From assembly GCF_900291955.1 (NCBI RefSeq), contig NZ_OLMR01000001.1, forward strand, positions 186,001-250,000: a DNA stretch of 64,000 bases, read 5' to 3'. This DNA comes from Pseudoruminococcus massiliensis. GTDB taxonomy: Bacteria; Bacillota; Clostridia; Oscillospirales; Acutalibacteraceae. A program made the position numbers and the translations under genes. Positions 4,565-59,779 of the stretch are shown here, in pieces. The notes below the pieces were generated by a model that made no database searches, had not been told where the DNA came from, and saw only the letters and a program-made list of their open reading frames with translations. The first letter of the stretch is position 1, and each line of letters opens with the position of its first letter.

Positions 4565-4695
4565 TTAATGTTAAGGGCTTTGCCCTTAACACCCACGAGG
4601 GACTCCGTCCCTCGACCCTGCGAGCCTTTGAAAAGGCTCAAGCGAAACTTTTAATTTTTTTAGAAAAGTGCATTAGCTAATCGGTAGTTCACTGA
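4565..4695 (+). repeat. Interspersed hairpin repeat, copy 2 (subtype A)
   Basis: Located between the ppk end and the miaB start. Modules in order are TTAAGGGC..GCCCTTAA (4569-4588), GAGGGAC..GTCCCTC (4596-4614), GAGCCTTT..AGGCTC (about 4621-4640), and the tail GCGAAACTTTTAA (4642-4654). A weaker downstream block resembles TTAGAAAAG...TTAGCTAATCGG. Copies 3 and 7 match module by module. Confidence 0.88.
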
Positions 4696-8638: not shown

Positions 8639-8790
8639 AAAATGGCGGACAAAGTCCTCCATTTAAAAGTAAGAAAAGTTAAGGGCGTTGCCCTTAAAAC
8701 CTACGAGGGACTCCGTCCCTCAATCCTTCGAGCCTTTGAAATGGCTCAAGCGAAACTTTTAATTGTCTAAGATAAGTTTATTAGCTAAGG
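8639..8790 (+). repeat. Interspersed hairpin repeat, copy 3 (subtype A with leading module)
   Basis: This fills most of the 318-bp gap between ppx and the next gene. It begins with a module TGGCGGAC..GTCCTCCA (8642-8661), then AAAAGTAAG, then TTAAGGGC..GCCCTTAA, GAGGGAC..GTCCCTC, GAGCCTTT..GGCTC and the tail GCGAAACTTTTAA (about 8752-8764), followed by a TTAGCTAAGGGG-like end. The leading module is also present in the copies at 38131 and 60033. Confidence 0.87.
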
Positions 8791-30960: not shown

Positions 30961-31401
30961 TTAATTTTCTTCTCTTATAAATTTTTGTGTATCAGAAATT
31001 ATTTCAGCTAAGGTAATATTTTTCATTTCTTTTTCCATAGCCCTTTGTACTCTTTCAAGTTTTTCATCAAGAGCATTATGAATATTTCTACCCACAGGAC
31101 AATTTGGGTTCGGATTCTCGTGAAAATGAAAAAGCTCACCATTATCTACACATTCAACAGCATTATAAATATCAAGCAAAGTTATCTCATCAAGAGGCTT
31201 TGCAATTTCTGCACCACCACTTCCACGAGCAACATTCACAATTCCTGCGGCTTTAAGTTGTTGCAATATTCTTCTTATTATAACAGGATTAACATTAACG
31301 CTTCCTGCAAGGAAATCGCTTGTTAGTTTATAGCTATCTTTAAATGTATCTATACAATCTAAAATATGTACAGCTATTGTAAGTCTGCTTGAAATCTGCA
31401 T
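30961..31401 (-). CDS. Rrf2-family transcriptional regulator
   Basis: A 146-residue winged-helix regulator. The N-terminus MQISSRLTIAVHIL is typical, followed by the recognition region VNVNPVIIRRILQQLKAAG and the wing VARGSGGAEIAKP. Only one conserved cysteine (NPNCPVGRNI) is present, so a classical three-Cys Fe-S cluster (IscR/NsrR type) is unlikely; it resembles YwnA-like members. The ATG at 31401 follows AAGGAGATTTTTT; the longer frame at 31446 is rejected. It probably controls the MBL-like gene downstream. Confidence 0.9.
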   Translation of the reverse strand: MQISSRLTIAVHILDCIDTFKDSYKLTSDFLAGSVNVNPVIIRRILQQLKAAGIVNVARGSGGAEIAKPLDEITLLDIYNAVECVDNGELFHFHENPNPNCPVGRNIHNALDEKLERVQRAMEKEMKNITLAEIISDTQKFIREEN

Positions 31402-31432
31402 AAAAAATCTCCTTATCAAATTTCTTGAAGTA

Positions 31433-31462
31433 ATTATATCACTCACATATATTAAGTGTCAA
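31433..31462 (-). promoter_or_regulatory. Promoter of the Rrf2 gene
   Basis: TTGACA (31457-31462), 18-bp spacer, TATAAT (31433-31438). No TTGTAA dyad is present here. Confidence 0.78.
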
Positions 31463-31524: not shown

Positions 31525-33009
31525 TTACTTTAAGCCCGCATAGCCCATAAGATACTCGTCTACATCAGCGGCAGCATCTCTGCCCTCTCTGATAGCCCAT
31601 ACAACAAGAGATTGTCCTCTGTGCATATCTCCTGCTGTGAATACCTTTTCAACATTTGTCTTAAACTTGCCAGCCTCAGTTGCAACATTGCTTCTTGCAT
31701 TAGTTTCAACGCCAAAAGCATCTGCAATATATCCCTTAGGACCTAAGAAGCCTGCTGCAATAAGTACAAGCTCTGCCTCAAGATATTGCTCTGAGCCTTC
31801 AACTGTCTGCATAACATTTCTGCCATTCTCGTCCTTGACGAAATGAACATTAACAATAACAACACCCTTGAGATTACCGCCCTCGTCCTTGACAAATTCC
31901 TTAACAGTTGTCTGATAGCGTCTTGGGTCTGAGCCAAATACAGTAATAGCCTCCTGTTGACCGTAGTCTGTCTTACAGATGCGAGGCCATTCAGGCCAAG
32001 GGTTATTCTCTGCTCTGCTATCAGGGAGCTTAGGCATCATTTCAAGCTGAATAACAGACTTACAGCCATGACGGATAGATGTGCCAACGCAGTCGTTACC
32101 TGTATCACCGCCACCGATAATTATAACATTCTTATCTTTTGCAGAAATATAATTTCCGTCCTCAAGATTAGAATTTAAAAGACTTTTTGTTGTTGATGTA
32201 AGGAAGTCAACCGCAAAGTAGATTCCGTTTGCATCTCTTCCAGAAACATTTATATCACGAGGATTTCCTGCACCACAAGCAAGAACGACAGCATCGTAAT
32301 CATTGAGAATTGAATTAGCATCGTAATTTTCGCCTACATTTGCGTTTGTTACGAAATTAACTCCCTCTGCCTTCATAAGCTCTATTCGTCTTTCGATAAT
32401 ATGCTTTTCAAGCTTCATATTAGGGATACCATACATAAGAAGTCCGCCAAGACGGTCGTCCTTTTCGTATACAGTAACGCTGTGACCTCTCATATTAAGT
32501 TGAGCCGCACAAGCAAGGCCAGAAGGACCTGAACCAATAACAGCAACTCTCTTGCCTGTTCTGACTTTCGGAGGATTAGGCTTAATCATACCAGTTTCAA
32601 AAGCGTTTTCGATAATGAAGTTTTCATTTTCCTTAACGCTTACTGGCAAGCCATTAAGTCCACAAGTACAAGCTGCCTCACAAAGTGCAGGACAAACTCT
32701 TGAAGTAAACTCCGGAAAGTTATTTGTCATCAAAAGACGATGAGCAGCCGCATCAAATTCACCTGTATATACCAGCTCATTCCACTCTGGGATAAGATTG
32801 TTGAGCGGACAGCCCGAAACCATACCCATAATCGGCCTGCCGTTCTGACAAAACGGTACACCGCAGTCCATACATCTTGCAGCCTGCTTCTGTCGTTCTT
32901 CAGCCTGCATAGGTGTATGAAATTCGTTAAAATTCTTTATTCTCTCTGAAGGCTCTGAACCTTTGTTATTTTTTCTTTCAAATTCCATAAAACCTGTTGG
33001 TTTAGCCAT
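31525..33009 (-). CDS. gltD: Glutamate synthase small subunit
   Basis: A 494-residue NADPH-dependent beta subunit that feeds electrons to GltB. N-terminal Fe-S cysteines are in ARCMDCGVPFC, SGCPLNNLIPEW and RVCPALCEAACTCGL. The FAD-binding GSGPSGLACAAQLNMRGH and the NAD(P)H-binding IIIGGGDTGNDC motifs follow. It is 13 bp after gltB and is followed by a terminator, so it ends the gltBD operon. Length is normal. Confidence 0.96.
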   Translation of the reverse strand: MAKPTGFMEFERKNNKGSEPSERIKNFNEFHTPMQAEERQKQAARCMDCGVPFCQNGRPIMGMVSGCPLNNLIPEWNELVYTGEFDAAAHRLLMTNNFPEFTSRVCPALCEAACTCGLNGLPVSVKENENFIIENAFETGMIKPNPPKVRTGKRVAVIGSGPSGLACAAQLNMRGHSVTVYEKDDRLGGLLMYGIPNMKLEKHIIERRIELMKAEGVNFVTNANVGENYDANSILNDYDAVVLACGAGNPRDINVSGRDANGIYFAVDFLTSTTKSLLNSNLEDGNYISAKDKNVIIIGGGDTGNDCVGTSIRHGCKSVIQLEMMPKLPDSRAENNPWPEWPRICKTDYGQQEAITVFGSDPRRYQTTVKEFVKDEGGNLKGVVIVNVHFVKDENGRNVMQTVEGSEQYLEAELVLIAAGFLGPKGYIADAFGVETNARSNVATEAGKFKTNVEKVFTAGDMHRGQSLVVWAIREGRDAAADVDEYLMGYAGLK

Positions 33010-33022
33010 TTTGTCCGCCTCC

Positions 33023-36000
33023 TTACTTTTTAGTTGTCATATAGAATGCTTCGATTTTTGCTTGCTCAGGGCTCATACCCTTTTCTTCAAGAACGAAGAT
33101 AGCCTGCATCATCTTAGCATAATCATTTGGAAGAATCTTCTTGAACTTAGGCAGATAATACTCGAAGTTATCGAGTATTTCCTTGCCCTTAGGAGAACCA
33201 GTCGCATCAACATGCTGTTGAATAATATCTCTAAGCTCTGCAATGTCATACTTATCCTTAACACCGCCGATAGAAACAAGTTCCTTATTCATCTTCATAT
33301 AGAGGTCGGAATCCTCATCAAGAACATAAGCAATACCGCCACTCATACCTGCGGCAAAGTTTTTGCCAGTTTTTCCGAGAATAACAACTCTACCACCAGT
33401 CATATATTCACAGCCGTGGTCGCCGACACCCTCAGCAACAGCGATTGCACCTGAATTTCTTACGCAGAAACGTTCACCAGCAACACCGCTGATAAATGCC
33501 TTACCACTTGTTGCACCGTAAAGTGCGACATTACCGATAATGATATTTTCATCTCTTTTGAAGTTAGAACCCTTTGGAGGATAAACCTTAAGCTTACCAC
33601 CGGAAAGACCCTTACCGAAGTAATCGTTGCTATCGCCTTCAAGTTCAAGTGTTAAACCCTTTGGAATAAATGCACCAAAGCTCTGACCACCCGCACCATG
33701 ACATCTTACAACGAAGAAATCATCATCAAGAGTATTATCGTGATAGCGTTTTGTAATCTCTGAACCAAAAATTGTACCAACTGAACGGTCTGTATTTGTA
33801 ATATCAATATCAATAGATTTCTTGGTCTTATTTTTAAGAGCAGAACCGAGCTTCTTCATAATAACCTTTTCATCTATTGTCTTTTCAAGCTCAAAATCAT
33901 ACTTATCAGCAGGATTGAATATTCTTGGAACATCTTCTCCAACATAAGGATTACGGAGAATATTTGTCATATCAATCTTGCTTTCCTTAGAGCCACCCTC
34001 AGTTTCCTTTACTCTTAGGAGGTCGGAACGGCCAACAAGCTCATCAACAGTTCTTATACCCAGCTTAGCCATATACTCTCTGAGTTCCTGTGCGATAAAG
34101 TGCATAAAGTTTATGACATATTCAGGCTTGCCCTTAAATCTCTTTCTAAGTTCAGGATTCTGAGTTGCTATACCAACAGGACATGTATCGAGATTACATA
34201 CTCTCATCATTACACAGCCCATTGTGACAAGCGGAGCAGTAGCAAAGCCGTATTCCTCTGCACCAAGAAGTGCTGCAACGAGAACATCACGACCTGTCAT
34301 AAGCTTACCATCTGTTTCAATAACAACCTTAGAACGCAAGCCGTTCATAATAAGAGTCTGATGAGTTTCAGCCAAACCAAGCTCCCATGGAAGACCTGCA
34401 TTATAGATTGAGTTTCTCGGAGCAGCACCAGTACCGCCGTCATAACCGGAAATCAATACAACTCCTGCGCCTGCCTTAGCAACACCGGCTGCGATTGTAC
34501 CTACACCAGCCTCAGAAACAAGCTTTACAGAGATTCTTGCATTCTTGTTTGCATTTTTAAGGTCATAGATAAGCTGTGCAAGGTCCTCGATAGAATAAAT
34601 ATCGTGATGTGGTGGCGGAGAAATAAGACCAACACCAGGGGTTGAATGTCTTGTCTTAGCAACCCAAGGATAAACCTTCTTACCAGGAAGATGTCCACCC
34701 TCACCAGGCTTAGCACCCTGTGCCATCTTAATCTGAATTTCCTGAGCACTTACAAGATATTCAGAAGTTACGCCGAAACGACCAGAAGCAACCTGCTTAA
34801 TTGCAGAACAGCGGTTAAGACCGTCCTTACCGATTGTAAGACGCTCAACATCTTCACCGCCCTCGCCAGAGTTAGACTTACCGCCGATAGTATTCATAGC
34901 GATAGCCATTGTTTCGTGAGCCTCTTGTGAGATTGAACCGTAAGACATAGCACCAGTCTTAAAGCGGTGGCAAATGCTCTCAACGCTCTCTACTTCATCA
35001 ATAGAAATTCCACCATCTTCTGGGAAGTTGAAGTCAAGCAAGCTTCTGAGATTCATATGTCTGTCTTCTTTGTTGATAGCCTCAGAATACTGCTTAAACA
35101 TATCATAGTTGCAGGTTCTTGTAGACTCTTGAAGAAGATGTATAGTTTCAGGATTATAGAGATGCTCTTCCTTGCCACTTCTAAGCTTATGACTGCCCGC
35201 ACTATTTACTTCAAGAAGAACATTAAGTCCAAGTGGGTCATATGCTGCGGAATGAAGCTTCTCTGAACGCTTGCTTATATCATCAAGAGTAATACCGCCT
35301 ACACGGCTTACTGTATTTGTGAAGTATTTGTCGATAACCTCTTTAGAAATACCGATAGCCTCAAAAATTTTAGAACCAAGATAAGAACGAATTGTAGAAA
35401 TACCCATCTTAGAAGCAATCTTTACAATACCGTGAAGAACTGCTGAATTATAGTCATATACAGCCGCATAATAGTCCTTATCCAAAGCACCTGTATCAAC
35501 AAGATTACGGATAGTTTCCTGTGCGAGATATGGGTTAATAGCACAAGCACCATAACCAAGAAGTGTTGCGAAATGGTGAATTTCGCAAGGCTCTGCACTT
35601 TCAAGGAGCATAGAAACAGAGGTTCTCTTCTTTGTAGAAACGAGATGCTGCTGAAGTGCTGAAACTGCAAGCAATGACGGAATAGCAACATGGTATTCGT
35701 CAACGCCTCTATCTGAAAGAATAAGAATATTTGCACCGTCTTTATAAGCTTTATCAGCCTTTAAGAAAAGCTGGTCAATAGCCTTAGCAAGGTTTGTATT
35801 CTTATAATATGTTAAAGGAATAACTGCCGGCTTAATTCCCGGAACATTCATATTCTTAATCTTGAGCATATCAGTGTTTGTCAAGATAGGATTATGAATT
35901 TTAAGGACATGACAGTTTTCAGGCTTTTCATCAAGAATATTACCATCAGAACCGATATAAACGCTTGTATCAGTAACTATCTCCTCACGAATTGCGTCAA

Positions 36001-37585
36001 ACGGTGGGTTTGTAACCTGTGCGAAAAGCTGCTTAAAGTAGTTGAAAAGAGGAGCCTTTTCATCTGCAAGTGGAGGAATTGGTACATCTGCACCCATAGC
36101 CGCAATAGGCTCTGTGCCATTTTTAGCCATAGGAAGAATACTTGTTCTGATTTCCTCATATGTGTAACCGAAAGCCTTTTGAAGTCTTACAAGCTGTTCA
36201 TCATCAAAGTGGATAACATTCTTATTAGGAATCTTCAAATCCTTGAGGTGAACGAGGTTGTTATCAAGCCATTCACCATAAGGCTGTCTATGCGAATAGT
36301 AGTCCTTAATATCAGTATCGTCAATAAGCTTACCCTTTGTTGTATCAACAAGGAGCATCTTACCAGGACGCAAACGCTCTTTTACAAGAACCTTTTCAGG
36401 TGGAATATCTATACAGCCAACCTCTGATGAAAGTACGAGGAAACCGTCTGTTGTAATATAATATCTTGATGGTCTAAGACCGTTTCTATCTAGAACCGCA
36501 CCAACTATATCGCCATCAGAAAAGATAATTGATGCAGGACCGTCCCAAGGCTCCATCATTGTTGCGTAGTATTGATAGAAATCTCTTCTTGTGTTTGAAA
36601 TTGTCTTGCTGTTTTCCCAAGGCTCAGGAATTGTAATCATAACTGCAAGCGGAAGCGGGATACCAGCCATCATCATAAATTCAAGAGAGTTATCGAGGCG
36701 AGCAGAGTCGGAACCGTTTGTATCAACAATCGGAAAAACCTTATCAATATCGTCCTTGAAAATGTCGCTTGAGATTGAATCTTCTCTTGCAAGCATTCTG
36801 TCGGCGTTACCTGTGATAGTATTAATTTCACCATTATGAACGATTATACGGTTTGGGTGAGCCTTCTGCCAGCTTGGATTTGTATTTGTACTAAAACGGC
36901 TATGAACAGTCGCAATAGCTGAAGTATACTTTTCGCTCTGAAGGTCATAGAAGAACTGACGAAGTTCTTTAACAAGGAACATACCCTTATAAACGATAGT
37001 TCTGCTTGAGAGTGAAACAACATAAGTTTCCTCGTTGCTCTGCTCAAAAACTCTACGAGCAACATAGAGCTTTCTATCAAAAGGGAGACCCTTTTCTACA
37101 TTTTCAGGACGCTTAACAAAGCCCTGCATAATGTATGGCATACTATCGAGAGCTTTTTGACCGATAACAGAAGGATTTGTAGGAACTTCTCTCCAGCCGA
37201 GGAACTCCATGCCCTCTTTTTCTATAACGATTTCAAAAAGCTTCATAGCCTGCATTCTTTTTAGGTTATTTTGTGGGAAGAAAAACATTCCGACACCGTA
37301 ATCTCTTTCTTCACCAATGTCAAAACCAAGCTTAGCTGTTTCGGTCTTAAAGAATTCGTGTGAAACCTGCAAGAGAATACCAACACCGTCACCAGTCTTG
37401 CCCTCTGCATCTTTACCAGCTCTGTGTTCGAGAGTTTCAACAATGCTCAAAGCATTGTCTACAACCTGACGAGATTTTATACCATTGATATTGACTACGG
37501 AACCTATACCGCAGTTATCATGCTCAAAACGGGGGTCATAAAGTCCCTGTTTTGCGAAAGGTTCCTGATTTCTGAAATTATCCAT
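33023..37585 (-). CDS. gltB: Glutamate synthase large subunit
   Basis: A 1520-residue alpha subunit, converting glutamine plus 2-oxoglutarate to two glutamates. The class-II glutaminase nucleophile Cys is in HDNCGIGSV (about residue 25), after a short propeptide. The synthase domain includes a GAKPGEGGHLPGKKV loop. The 3Fe-4S cysteines are in CVMMRVCNLDTCPVG (about residue 1150). The C-terminal GXGXG repeat domain includes GNVALYGATSGKAF. ATG follows AAAGGAGAATTACTTCTG. Expression is probably gated by the leader terminator upstream. Confidence 0.97.
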   Translation of the reverse strand: MDNFRNQEPFAKQGLYDPRFEHDNCGIGSVVNINGIKSRQVVDNALSIVETLEHRAGKDAEGKTGDGVGILLQVSHEFFKTETAKLGFDIGEERDYGVGMFFFPQNNLKRMQAMKLFEIVIEKEGMEFLGWREVPTNPSVIGQKALDSMPYIMQGFVKRPENVEKGLPFDRKLYVARRVFEQSNEETYVVSLSSRTIVYKGMFLVKELRQFFYDLQSEKYTSAIATVHSRFSTNTNPSWQKAHPNRIIVHNGEINTITGNADRMLAREDSISSDIFKDDIDKVFPIVDTNGSDSARLDNSLEFMMMAGIPLPLAVMITIPEPWENSKTISNTRRDFYQYYATMMEPWDGPASIIFSDGDIVGAVLDRNGLRPSRYYITTDGFLVLSSEVGCIDIPPEKVLVKERLRPGKMLLVDTTKGKLIDDTDIKDYYSHRQPYGEWLDNNLVHLKDLKIPNKNVIHFDDEQLVRLQKAFGYTYEEIRTSILPMAKNGTEPIAAMGADVPIPPLADEKAPLFNYFKQLFAQVTNPPFDAIREEIVTDTSVYIGSDGNILDEKPENCHVLKIHNPILTNTDMLKIKNMNVPGIKPAVIPLTYYKNTNLAKAIDQLFLKADKAYKDGANILILSDRGVDEYHVAIPSLLAVSALQQHLVSTKKRTSVSMLLESAEPCEIHHFATLLGYGACAINPYLAQETIRNLVDTGALDKDYYAAVYDYNSAVLHGIVKIASKMGISTIRSYLGSKIFEAIGISKEVIDKYFTNTVSRVGGITLDDISKRSEKLHSAAYDPLGLNVLLEVNSAGSHKLRSGKEEHLYNPETIHLLQESTRTCNYDMFKQYSEAINKEDRHMNLRSLLDFNFPEDGGISIDEVESVESICHRFKTGAMSYGSISQEAHETMAIAMNTIGGKSNSGEGGEDVERLTIGKDGLNRCSAIKQVASGRFGVTSEYLVSAQEIQIKMAQGAKPGEGGHLPGKKVYPWVAKTRHSTPGVGLISPPPHHDIYSIEDLAQLIYDLKNANKNARISVKLVSEAGVGTIAAGVAKAGAGVVLISGYDGGTGAAPRNSIYNAGLPWELGLAETHQTLIMNGLRSKVVIETDGKLMTGRDVLVAALLGAEEYGFATAPLVTMGCVMMRVCNLDTCPVGIATQNPELRKRFKGKPEYVINFMHFIAQELREYMAKLGIRTVDELVGRSDLLRVKETEGGSKESKIDMTNILRNPYVGEDVPRIFNPADKYDFELEKTIDEKVIMKKLGSALKNKTKKSIDIDITNTDRSVGTIFGSEITKRYHDNTLDDDFFVVRCHGAGGQSFGAFIPKGLTLELEGDSNDYFGKGLSGGKLKVYPPKGSNFKRDENIIIGNVALYGATSGKAFISGVAGERFCVRNSGAIAVAEGVGDHGCEYMTGGRVVILGKTGKNFAAGMSGGIAYVLDEDSDLYMKMNKELVSIGGVKDKYDIAELRDIIQQHVDATGSPKGKEILDNFEYYLPKFKKILPNDYAKMMQAIFVLEEKGMSPEQAKIEAFYMTTKK

Positions 37586-37621
37586 CAGAAGTAATTCTCC
37601 TTTACAGTTAATTTATAGGTC

Positions 37622-37746
37622 AAAAAATGCGTCCACCATTAGAGCCCATTCCCCATTTTGTGCGGAATGAGCCCAAATTGGTGAACGCCATTATTCCCAA
37701 TACTCATTTACTCGTTTAGAATATCATATATATTCTTGTTTGTCAA
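37622..37746 (-). promoter_or_regulatory. gltBD promoter and leader terminator (attenuator)
   Basis: Promoter TTGACA (37741-37746), 17-bp spacer ending ATGA, TATTCT (37718-37723). A 60-nt hairpin (37629-37688) follows: outer arms GCGTTCACCA/TGGTGGACGC (10 bp), inner arms GGGCTCATTCC/GGAATGGGCTC (11 bp with wobble pairs). ATTTTTTG follows. The stem stands between promoter and gene, 37 nt before the ATG, so transcription must pass it. Confidence 0.78.
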
Positions 37747-37982: not shown

Positions 37983-38110
37983 CAAAGTTTTGCTCAAGCT
38001 TTTAAATAAAGCCTGCAGTGTCGAGGGAAGGAGTCCCTCGTGGATTTTAAATGTGCAATGCCTTTAAAATTCTTTACACCTTAAATTCGGACTTTGCTCG
38101 CACTAAATCA
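37983..38110 (-). repeat. Interspersed hairpin repeat, copy 4 (worn, reverse orientation)
   Basis: Read on the minus strand, it follows subtype A: AGTGCGAGC..AAAGTC, TTTTAAAGGC..TTTAAAA, CACGAGGGACTCCTTCCCTCG, GGCTTTATTTAAAAGCTTGAGC, then AAAACTTTG. Several arms no longer match perfectly. It is the only copy seen in this orientation. Confidence 0.6.
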
Positions 38111-59511: not shown

Positions 59512-59779
59512 AACACCCTGCCGGGTGTTTCGTGAACTACCTTTAAAAAACCGGATTCGGTAATCCGAAATCCGGGTAAATAGTCAGAAAAAGGTCGTAG
59601 TAGTTCTGAGACACAGCAACCCTCAGTATCTCTTAACTTCCTTCTTTATTCTTTCGCCCGGTTTAAAAATCGGACATACTCCACGGAAAAACCGACCCTA
59701 TGGTCGCAACCTCCCGCTTCATCGCATATCTGTCGCAGTCACGCTCAATTATAATACCATACCGACCTGCATTTTGCAA
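59512..59779 (-). promoter_or_regulatory. S10-operon promoter P2 and structured leader with attenuator
   Basis: P2: TTGCAA (59774-59779), 17-bp spacer ending TATGG, TATTAT (59751-59756). Leader hairpins: CGACC/GGTCG then GTTTTTCC (59686-59706); CCGGAT-TCGG/CCGA-ATCCGG then TTTTTT (59545-59575), a clear intrinsic terminator about 80 nt before rpsJ; AACACCC/GGGTGTT (about 59511-59530). GAACTAC and GTAGTTC flank the terminator and are complementary, so alternative pairing is possible. Confidence 0.75.

Follow-up and report, generated by a model that had tools for sequence, protein, structure and literature searches.

Organization of the gltB leader

The stretch of Pseudoruminococcus massiliensis DNA analyzed here (64,000 nucleotides, hereafter the window) carries a glutamate synthase operon on its minus strand. 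An earlier note on this DNA had named the gene gltB of a gltBD pair, in agreement with the four Pfam families matched by its product (GATase_2, Glu_synthase, Glu_syn_central, and GXGXG) and with the GltD-type flavoprotein encoded behind it. The same note had placed a consensus promoter, and then a hairpin with a T-run, before the gltB ATG, and this arrangement was recovered when all coordinates were re-read on the minus strand. The features of the locus, in the direction of transcription, are as follows.

37718..37746, minus strand: promoter, with the -35 element TTGACA at 37746-37741 and the -10 element TATTCT at 37723-37718, TG in front of the latter, spacer of 17 nt
near 37711, minus strand: predicted +1 of the gltB transcript, from the promoter spacing
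37677..37701, minus strand: P2, putative antiterminator hairpin AUUGG-GAAU[AAUGGC]GUUC-(A bulge)-CCAAU, from folding and covariation
37687..37692, minus strand: hexaloop AAUGGC with A1 and G4, proposed ANTAR contact, from the sequence and the A1/G4 rule given in the available part of PMC3369931
37629..37688, minus strand: intrinsic terminator hairpin with a 10-bp outer and an 11-bp inner stem, from folding and a covarying helix
37622..37627, minus strand: U6 tract (T6) of the terminator, from the sequence
37597..37603, minus strand: ribosome-binding site AAAGGAG, from the sequence
33023..37585, minus strand: gltB, glutamate synthase large subunit, 1520 aa, ATG at 37585, from the ORF and Pfam
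31525..33009, minus strand: gltD-type flavoprotein subunit, 494 aa, 13 nt behind gltB

The next gene on this strand after gltD, at 30961-31446 (minus strand) and possibly part of the operon, encodes what we take by eye to be an Rrf2-like regulator.

The 130-nt leader folds at -44.5 kcal/mol, compared with -25.6 +/- 3.1 kcal/mol in 200 shuffled sequences, none of which was as good (z = -6.0), and the hairpin is therefore beyond chance. In the outer stem GCGTTCACCA pairs with TGGTGGACGC through 10 bp including one G-U, and in the inner stem 37674-37664 pairs with 37652-37642 through 11 bp. A simple terminator scan of the window did not list this hairpin because its stem is interrupted and its loop is over the length limit of the scan. 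Both same-genus genomes (loci L010 and L011) retain the hairpin upstream of gltB with sequence changes, and likewise the P2 hexaloop hairpin, so that the loss of conservation named earlier as a ground for refutation was not found. An origin of the hairpin as a repeat or mobile element was rejected, as a search of the same genome with the leader returned no second copy and the next match (E 0.017) lay inside an ORF elsewhere.

Two further elements were observed in the window. A 22-base element of palindromic appearance, GTCGAGGGANGGAGTCCCTCGT, was found at three places with up to 2 mismatches, where none was expected (38020-38041 on the plus strand, 4595-4616 and 8703-8724 on the minus strand), with a similar copy near position 6150 of L055 in the same genome, and looks like an interspersed repeat family. 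The sole Rfam match at gathering score in the whole window, at 59654-59730 (minus strand) and thus away from the gltB leader, was an S10-Clostridia ribosomal protein leader.

Two mutually exclusive folds

The terminator of the earlier description stands; what that description overlooked is a second hairpin, P2 (37701-37677), and the fact that it sits where the transcript is predicted to begin. Folded alone, the P2 piece has as its minimum free energy structure exactly AUUGG-GAAU[AAUGGC]GUUC-A-CCAAU (-6.5 kcal/mol), and the terminator piece folded alone reaches -36.8 kcal/mol. The 3' arm of P2 is the 5' arm of the terminator, and consequently only one of the two folds can exist at a time. The leader thereby combines two features of ANTAR target RNAs: a P2 hairpin that bears A1 and G4 in its hexaloop and overlaps a terminator with one arm, and an intrinsic terminator directly behind P2. 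The loop signature of such targets, six bases with A at position 1 and G at position 4, is taken from the available part of PMC3369931.

A similar arrangement was found at other nitrogen genes of the same genome. The leader of GSIII, which is followed by the Amt-PII fusion gene amt1, has a promoter, the hexaloop hairpin ACAGC[AAUGGC]GCUGU, and an overlapping terminator. The leader of the second ammonium transporter gene, amt2, has a promoter, the hairpin GAC[GAAGGC]GUC, and an overlapping terminator; this module is the weakest, with a stem of 3 bp and G at loop position 1, and amt2 is regarded as probably carrying the module. No module was found in the glnA-ANTAR leader or the amt1 leader. A covariance model of the terminator (R1, described below) gave seven matches in this genome at E up to 2, including gltB, GSIII, and amt2; of the others, C12:419389 was dropped for its lack of a visible promoter and its 3-bp stem, and C8:66048, C4:19331, and C6:52244 were dropped as no module could be parsed.

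Covariation and loop conservation in relatives

A pattern of promoter, hexaloop, and T-run had matches in 37 of 60 relatives, some of which were not modules. Selection by eye and with a script gave 41 modules from the loci collected, and 35 were aligned (alignment A1); the terminators of the other six (L092+1545, L109+1634, L122+448, L138+331, L140+3062, and L140-3389) were long or imperfect or had been delimited wrongly, and these modules were left out. Loop positions 2 and 4-6 are prescribed by the pattern, position 3 is limited in it, and the parsing script accepts only stems of 3 or more, so that the conservation of the loop and inner stem in A1 is partly by construction. The pairing in A1 was high for both P2 (90.0% of cells paired; covariation 0.693 vs 0.315 in shuffles) and the terminator (95.3% paired; covariation 0.558 vs 0.255), with 0 of 500 shuffles reaching the score in either case, and shifting the pairing partners sharply lowered both covariation scores. 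The P2 and terminator helices have columns 16-20 in common, and because both of them covary, the alignment records selection for two mutually exclusive folds.

The P2 count was repeated on R1 matches because the picking of modules had favored stems. R1 has 53 positions and includes terminator pairs only, with no P2 pairs and with the left-arm letters still included. Among 49 R1 matches from genomes outside the R1 seed (some of them in the same genera), P2 again covaried (0.614 vs 0.302; 0 of 500 shuffles). The P2 stem averaged 5.6 pairs, with 79% of stems at 5 or more, in the 78 of 85 R1 loci that could be parsed, a set that overlaps the R1 seed and still counts three apparent wrong-strand picks (L177, L188, and L190); when the left arms were swapped between loci as a control, the mean fell to 3.4 pairs and the share to 23%. 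R1 sometimes matched both strands at one place (e.g., G001:C14:46286 and 46291), which shows that it also picks plain symmetric terminators.

The loop was also evaluated in a set found without loop bias, consisting of 80 GSIII genes fetched by protein similarity alone. Their leaders contained 74 terminators, with 32 overlapping upstream hairpins (loop 4-9, stem at least 5). Half of these hairpins (16 of 32) had a six-base loop, against an expectation of about 2 by shuffling, and AANGGC was the loop sequence in 15 of them. A direct module scan detected 27 modules in the 80 GSIII leaders, of which one (L289) is doubtful, vs 7 of 80 in the antisense control and 1 of 80 inside the gene; the scan found no module in the remaining 53 leaders.

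One hexaloop or two

ANTAR targets are known as pairs of hexaloops. According to the portions available of the studies on eut leaders, EutV needs P1 as well as P2, with a linker of 5-12 nt, and induction drops drastically with linkers of 3 or 14 nt (PMC3369931); both hexaloops are needed in vivo (PMC3369931, PMC8934654). The EutV structure study, as far as its available text goes, found one hexaloop enough for binding and proposed P1 as a recruitment hairpin, considered the need for two hexaloops in antitermination only partly explained, asked about the extent of single-hexaloop sites, and predicted single hexaloops in settings free of the time constraint that transcription imposes (PMC8934654).

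The clostridial modules leave little space for a P1. A promoter lies at most 45 nt upstream in 95 of 124 modules, vs 4.7% at random places, and the median distance from the end of the -10 element to P2 is 9 nt. In 87 of the 95 promoter-bearing modules, fewer than 14 nt of predicted transcript precede P2, which would be too little for a P1 hairpin. In a count that makes no use of promoters, P1-like hexaloops at most 15 nt upstream of P2 were near chance in the 124 modules (5 vs 2.5 expected at stem 4, and 12 vs 6.5 at stem 3), a slight excess implying that a minority may have a P1, yet not as a rule.

The gltB leader could still be an ordinary dual-hexaloop target if transcription started further upstream than predicted or if a weak P1 formed. 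With about 10 nt before the extended P2, it belongs to the eight modules, out of 95, that have the most room, and it has a candidate P1, AGUA[AAUGAG]UAUU, whose equivalent in L011, AGUG[ACAGAA]UAUU, keeps A1 and G4. However, this weak candidate, the sole trace of a P1 hexaloop at a short linker in the leader, folds at 0.0 kcal/mol with a 3' arm that overlaps P2, and the two-hexaloop reading of gltB was rejected on these grounds; moreover, the GSIII and amt2 leaders of the same genome have no room for a P1. Together with the near-chance frequency of P1-like hairpins and the short 5' segments across relatives, these observations make a dual-hexaloop target unlikely, while leaving it the strongest of the alternatives. 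As read from promoter and fold, the gltB leader would work like ANTAR antitermination yet falls outside the dual-hexaloop class as defined. A literature search among open-licence papers found no account of single-hexaloop antitermination leaders or of this regulon.

A candidate ANTAR reader and its co-occurrence with the module

The earlier note had proposed looking for an ANTAR-domain gene in the genome, and exactly one match to PF03861 was found, in a 189-aa protein that scores 59.9 bits against a curated cut-off of 27.3 and whose gene starts 69 nt behind glnA. The genes that follow are presumably carA and carB, named by eye. By its neighborhood beside glnA, this ANTAR gene would be of the NitR type. 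The PDB relatives of the protein are Rv1626 (2.9e-9), AmiR (1.4e-5), and EutV (2.1e-5). EutV holds the loop through K143, K147, Y164, and M172, as given in the available part of PMC8934654, and the corresponding positions in 30 ANTAR proteins of relatives carry R (23), K (6), or Q (1); R (29) or Q (1); H (30); and M (30), respectively. The phospho-acceptor position of the same proteins carries N in 25, D in 2, and Y, G, and S in one each, and the P. massiliensis protein has N, lacking the aspartate that would mark a phosphorylated REC-ANTAR protein of the EutV type. With the contact residues kept and the aspartate mostly gone, hexaloop binding would be expected and switching by phosphorylation would be mostly impossible. 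Receivers without the aspartate have been reported as enriched next to ANTAR domains (PMC4395418, part of the text). From the position of the gene and the missing aspartate, glutamine synthetase or a P-II protein, such as the P-II domain fused to Amt1, are our guesses for the signal input to such a receiver.

The distribution of the module is consistent with an ANTAR reader. R1 matches (cut-off E 0.01) were present in 109 and PF03861 matches in 233 of the 394 genomes of the order sample (both, 103; module only, 6; ANTAR only, 130; neither, 155), and in 94 and 196, respectively, of the 391 genomes of the class sample (both, 87; module only, 7; ANTAR only, 109; neither, 188). The odds ratio was 20 in the order sample (p about 1e-21) and 21 in the class sample (p about 2e-23); the two samples have some genomes in common and the calculation ignores shared ancestry, so that the p-values are too small, and the odds ratio is still large. 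The absence of an R1 match in 130 of 233 and 109 of 196 ANTAR-bearing genomes indicates that other ANTAR targets exist or that R1 is insensitive.

Alternatively, the reader of the hexaloop hairpin might be a small ligand or a different RNA-binding protein, or the hairpin might act through RNA folding alone. Such a reading would be in keeping with the 13 module-bearing genomes over the two samples that gave no PF03861 match, some of them with clear modules (L208, L212, and L316). In these the ANTAR gene may have been lost, have diverged, or be missing from the assembly. Nevertheless, the A1/G4 hexaloop recurred in the set assembled without loop bias, the odds ratio was about 20 in both samples, and four of the six exceptions in the order sample have a same-genus genome with an ANTAR gene (g19, g54, g106, and g148). 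Modules also head operons that end in the ANTAR gene itself: in many genomes the two lie about 7 kb apart on the same contig, and in G039 the order is module, glutamate-synthase amidotransferase part, more glutamate-synthase/redox parts, glnA, and ANTAR gene, where the part names between module and ANTAR gene are our assignments by eye. Positive autoregulation would be predicted for such an operon. We therefore regard a reader other than an ANTAR protein as improbable, somewhat more so than a dual-hexaloop target.

Genes behind the modules

The 107 ORFs behind modules, a set that includes false modules (L077, L123, and L194 look accidental), are mostly nitrogen genes: Gln-synt_C in 42 (GSIII_N in 36), GATase_2 in 35, and ammonium transporter and glutamate dehydrogenase in 4 each, the rest being adenylosuccinate synthetase (2), SAICAR synthetase (2), the CTP synthase N-terminus (1), and a few others. 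Modules precede CTP synthase, PurF-like, PurA, and PurC genes at L142, L143, L160, L163, and L215, which suggests a regulon that in some genomes extends to nucleotide synthesis. At seven loci (L124, L132, L109, L153, L203, L210, and L217) GSIII and a glutamate-synthase amidotransferase gene are divergent, each with its own module. Among culturable species, Ruminococcus sp. YE71 carries a module (L305).

Several leaders have two complete hexaloop-terminator modules in series, with loops mostly 68-98 nt apart (25 candidate locus-strands, many of them the same place seen through overlapping loci). Examples before GSIII or amt genes are L124 2773-2893, L132 2870-2995, L109 1537-1685, and L128 240-367. 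As each tandem module has its own terminator, this arrangement differs from the dual-hexaloop motif.

Intrinsic terminators are common, and the hairpin might be no more than a constitutive partial terminator or the relic of a leader RNA, without regulation; however, P2 covaries in its own right and most of the genes behind the modules serve nitrogen metabolism, and we give this reading very little weight. Least credible is a riboswitch, for glutamine or another ligand, within the hairpin: even though glutamine riboswitches control cyanobacterial nitrogen genes (PMC6316151, part of the text), no Rfam family reached gathering score in the gltB leader, the two matches at E up to 10 were unrelated and far under threshold, and the inner part of the terminator hairpin varies freely in length and sequence among modules.

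Proposed mechanism

These results point with high probability to the gltB leader as a two-state transcription attenuator worked by the ANTAR protein of the genome, which would be of the NitR type and is encoded behind glnA. Of the two possibilities raised earlier, regulated antitermination by an ANTAR protein is thus favored by the exclusive hexaloop antiterminator, the ANTAR gene near glnA, and the association of module and ANTAR genes, and an aptamer within the hairpin is unsupported, with no credible Rfam match here. By default, the RNA would fold into the terminator and transcription would end some 90 nt after the predicted start, at the U tract, leaving a short RNA. The ANTAR protein would bind the AAUGGC hexaloop of the small hairpin at the extreme 5' end of the transcript when nitrogen is limiting, a direction of the signal taken from C. 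saccharobutylicum NitR. P2, being made first, would then be held until the polymerase clears the U tract, and as it uses the 5' arm of the terminator, no terminator would form and gltBD would be transcribed. The same module would serve GSIII-amt1 and probably amt2, and in other Clostridia GS, glutamate synthase, GDH, ammonium transporter, and some purine genes. In contrast to the ANTAR targets on record, every such module has a single hexaloop.

Comparison with known systems

A close parallel to this proposed attenuator is found in the eut leaders of Enterococcus faecalis, targets of EutV/EutW, where P2 also has A1 and G4, the terminator uses the 3' arm of P2 as its own 5' arm, and an ANTAR protein acts on nitrogen-linked genes (available part of PMC3369931). 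The EutV targets differ in needing an upstream P1 at 5-12 nt, for which 87 of 95 clostridial modules have no room, and EutV itself differs in being phosphorylated on an aspartate that 28 of the 30 ANTAR proteins considered here do not have. AmiR of the AmiR/AmiC system of Pseudomonas aeruginosa is likewise an ANTAR protein with a non-phosphorylatable receiver (PMC8934654, part of the text), and in the alignment it shares with all 30 proteins of relatives the histidine at the position of EutV Tyr164; its amiE leader, in contrast, has both P1 and P2 (available parts of PMC3369931 and PMC3369936). The actinobacterial ANTAR RNAs are also a target family found by covariance search, and differ in that the curated members are dual stem-loops joined by linkers of 2-25 nt (available part of PMC8164766).

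The control of glutamate synthase by ANTAR proteins is known in kind, from leaders of Desulfotomaculum reducens (available part of PMC3369931) and from NitR of Clostridium saccharobutylicum, which induces GS/GOGAT genes (glnA/gltAB) on nitrogen limitation by antitermination (PMC6316151, citing Stutz 2007, in the part available). NitR resembles the protein proposed here in being an ANTAR protein of nitrogen genes, and the ANTAR gene of P. massiliensis likewise follows glnA. It is possible that the NitR leaders contain this very single-hexaloop module, in which case the present one would be less novel.

Implications for nitrogen control in Clostridia

Beyond the single locus, and with less assurance than for gltB, we think it probable that Clostridia use a minimal ANTAR attenuator, in which one hexaloop hairpin is formed from the first transcribed nucleotides with no P1, is read by NitR-type proteins without the aspartate, and is placed in tandem in some leaders. 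Its regulon would span ammonium uptake, GS/GOGAT, and purine synthesis, and in some genomes also the operon of the ANTAR gene. Should a single hexaloop be sufficient, the current model, with P1 recruiting the protein ahead of P2 synthesis, would not hold generally, and this large natural set of leaders without room between promoter and P2 for a second hexaloop would allow a direct test of the question raised by the EutV study. Nitrogen control in a big group of Clostridia would thereby gain a concrete regulon and an RNA signature, for which the 53-position model R1 could be used in annotation.
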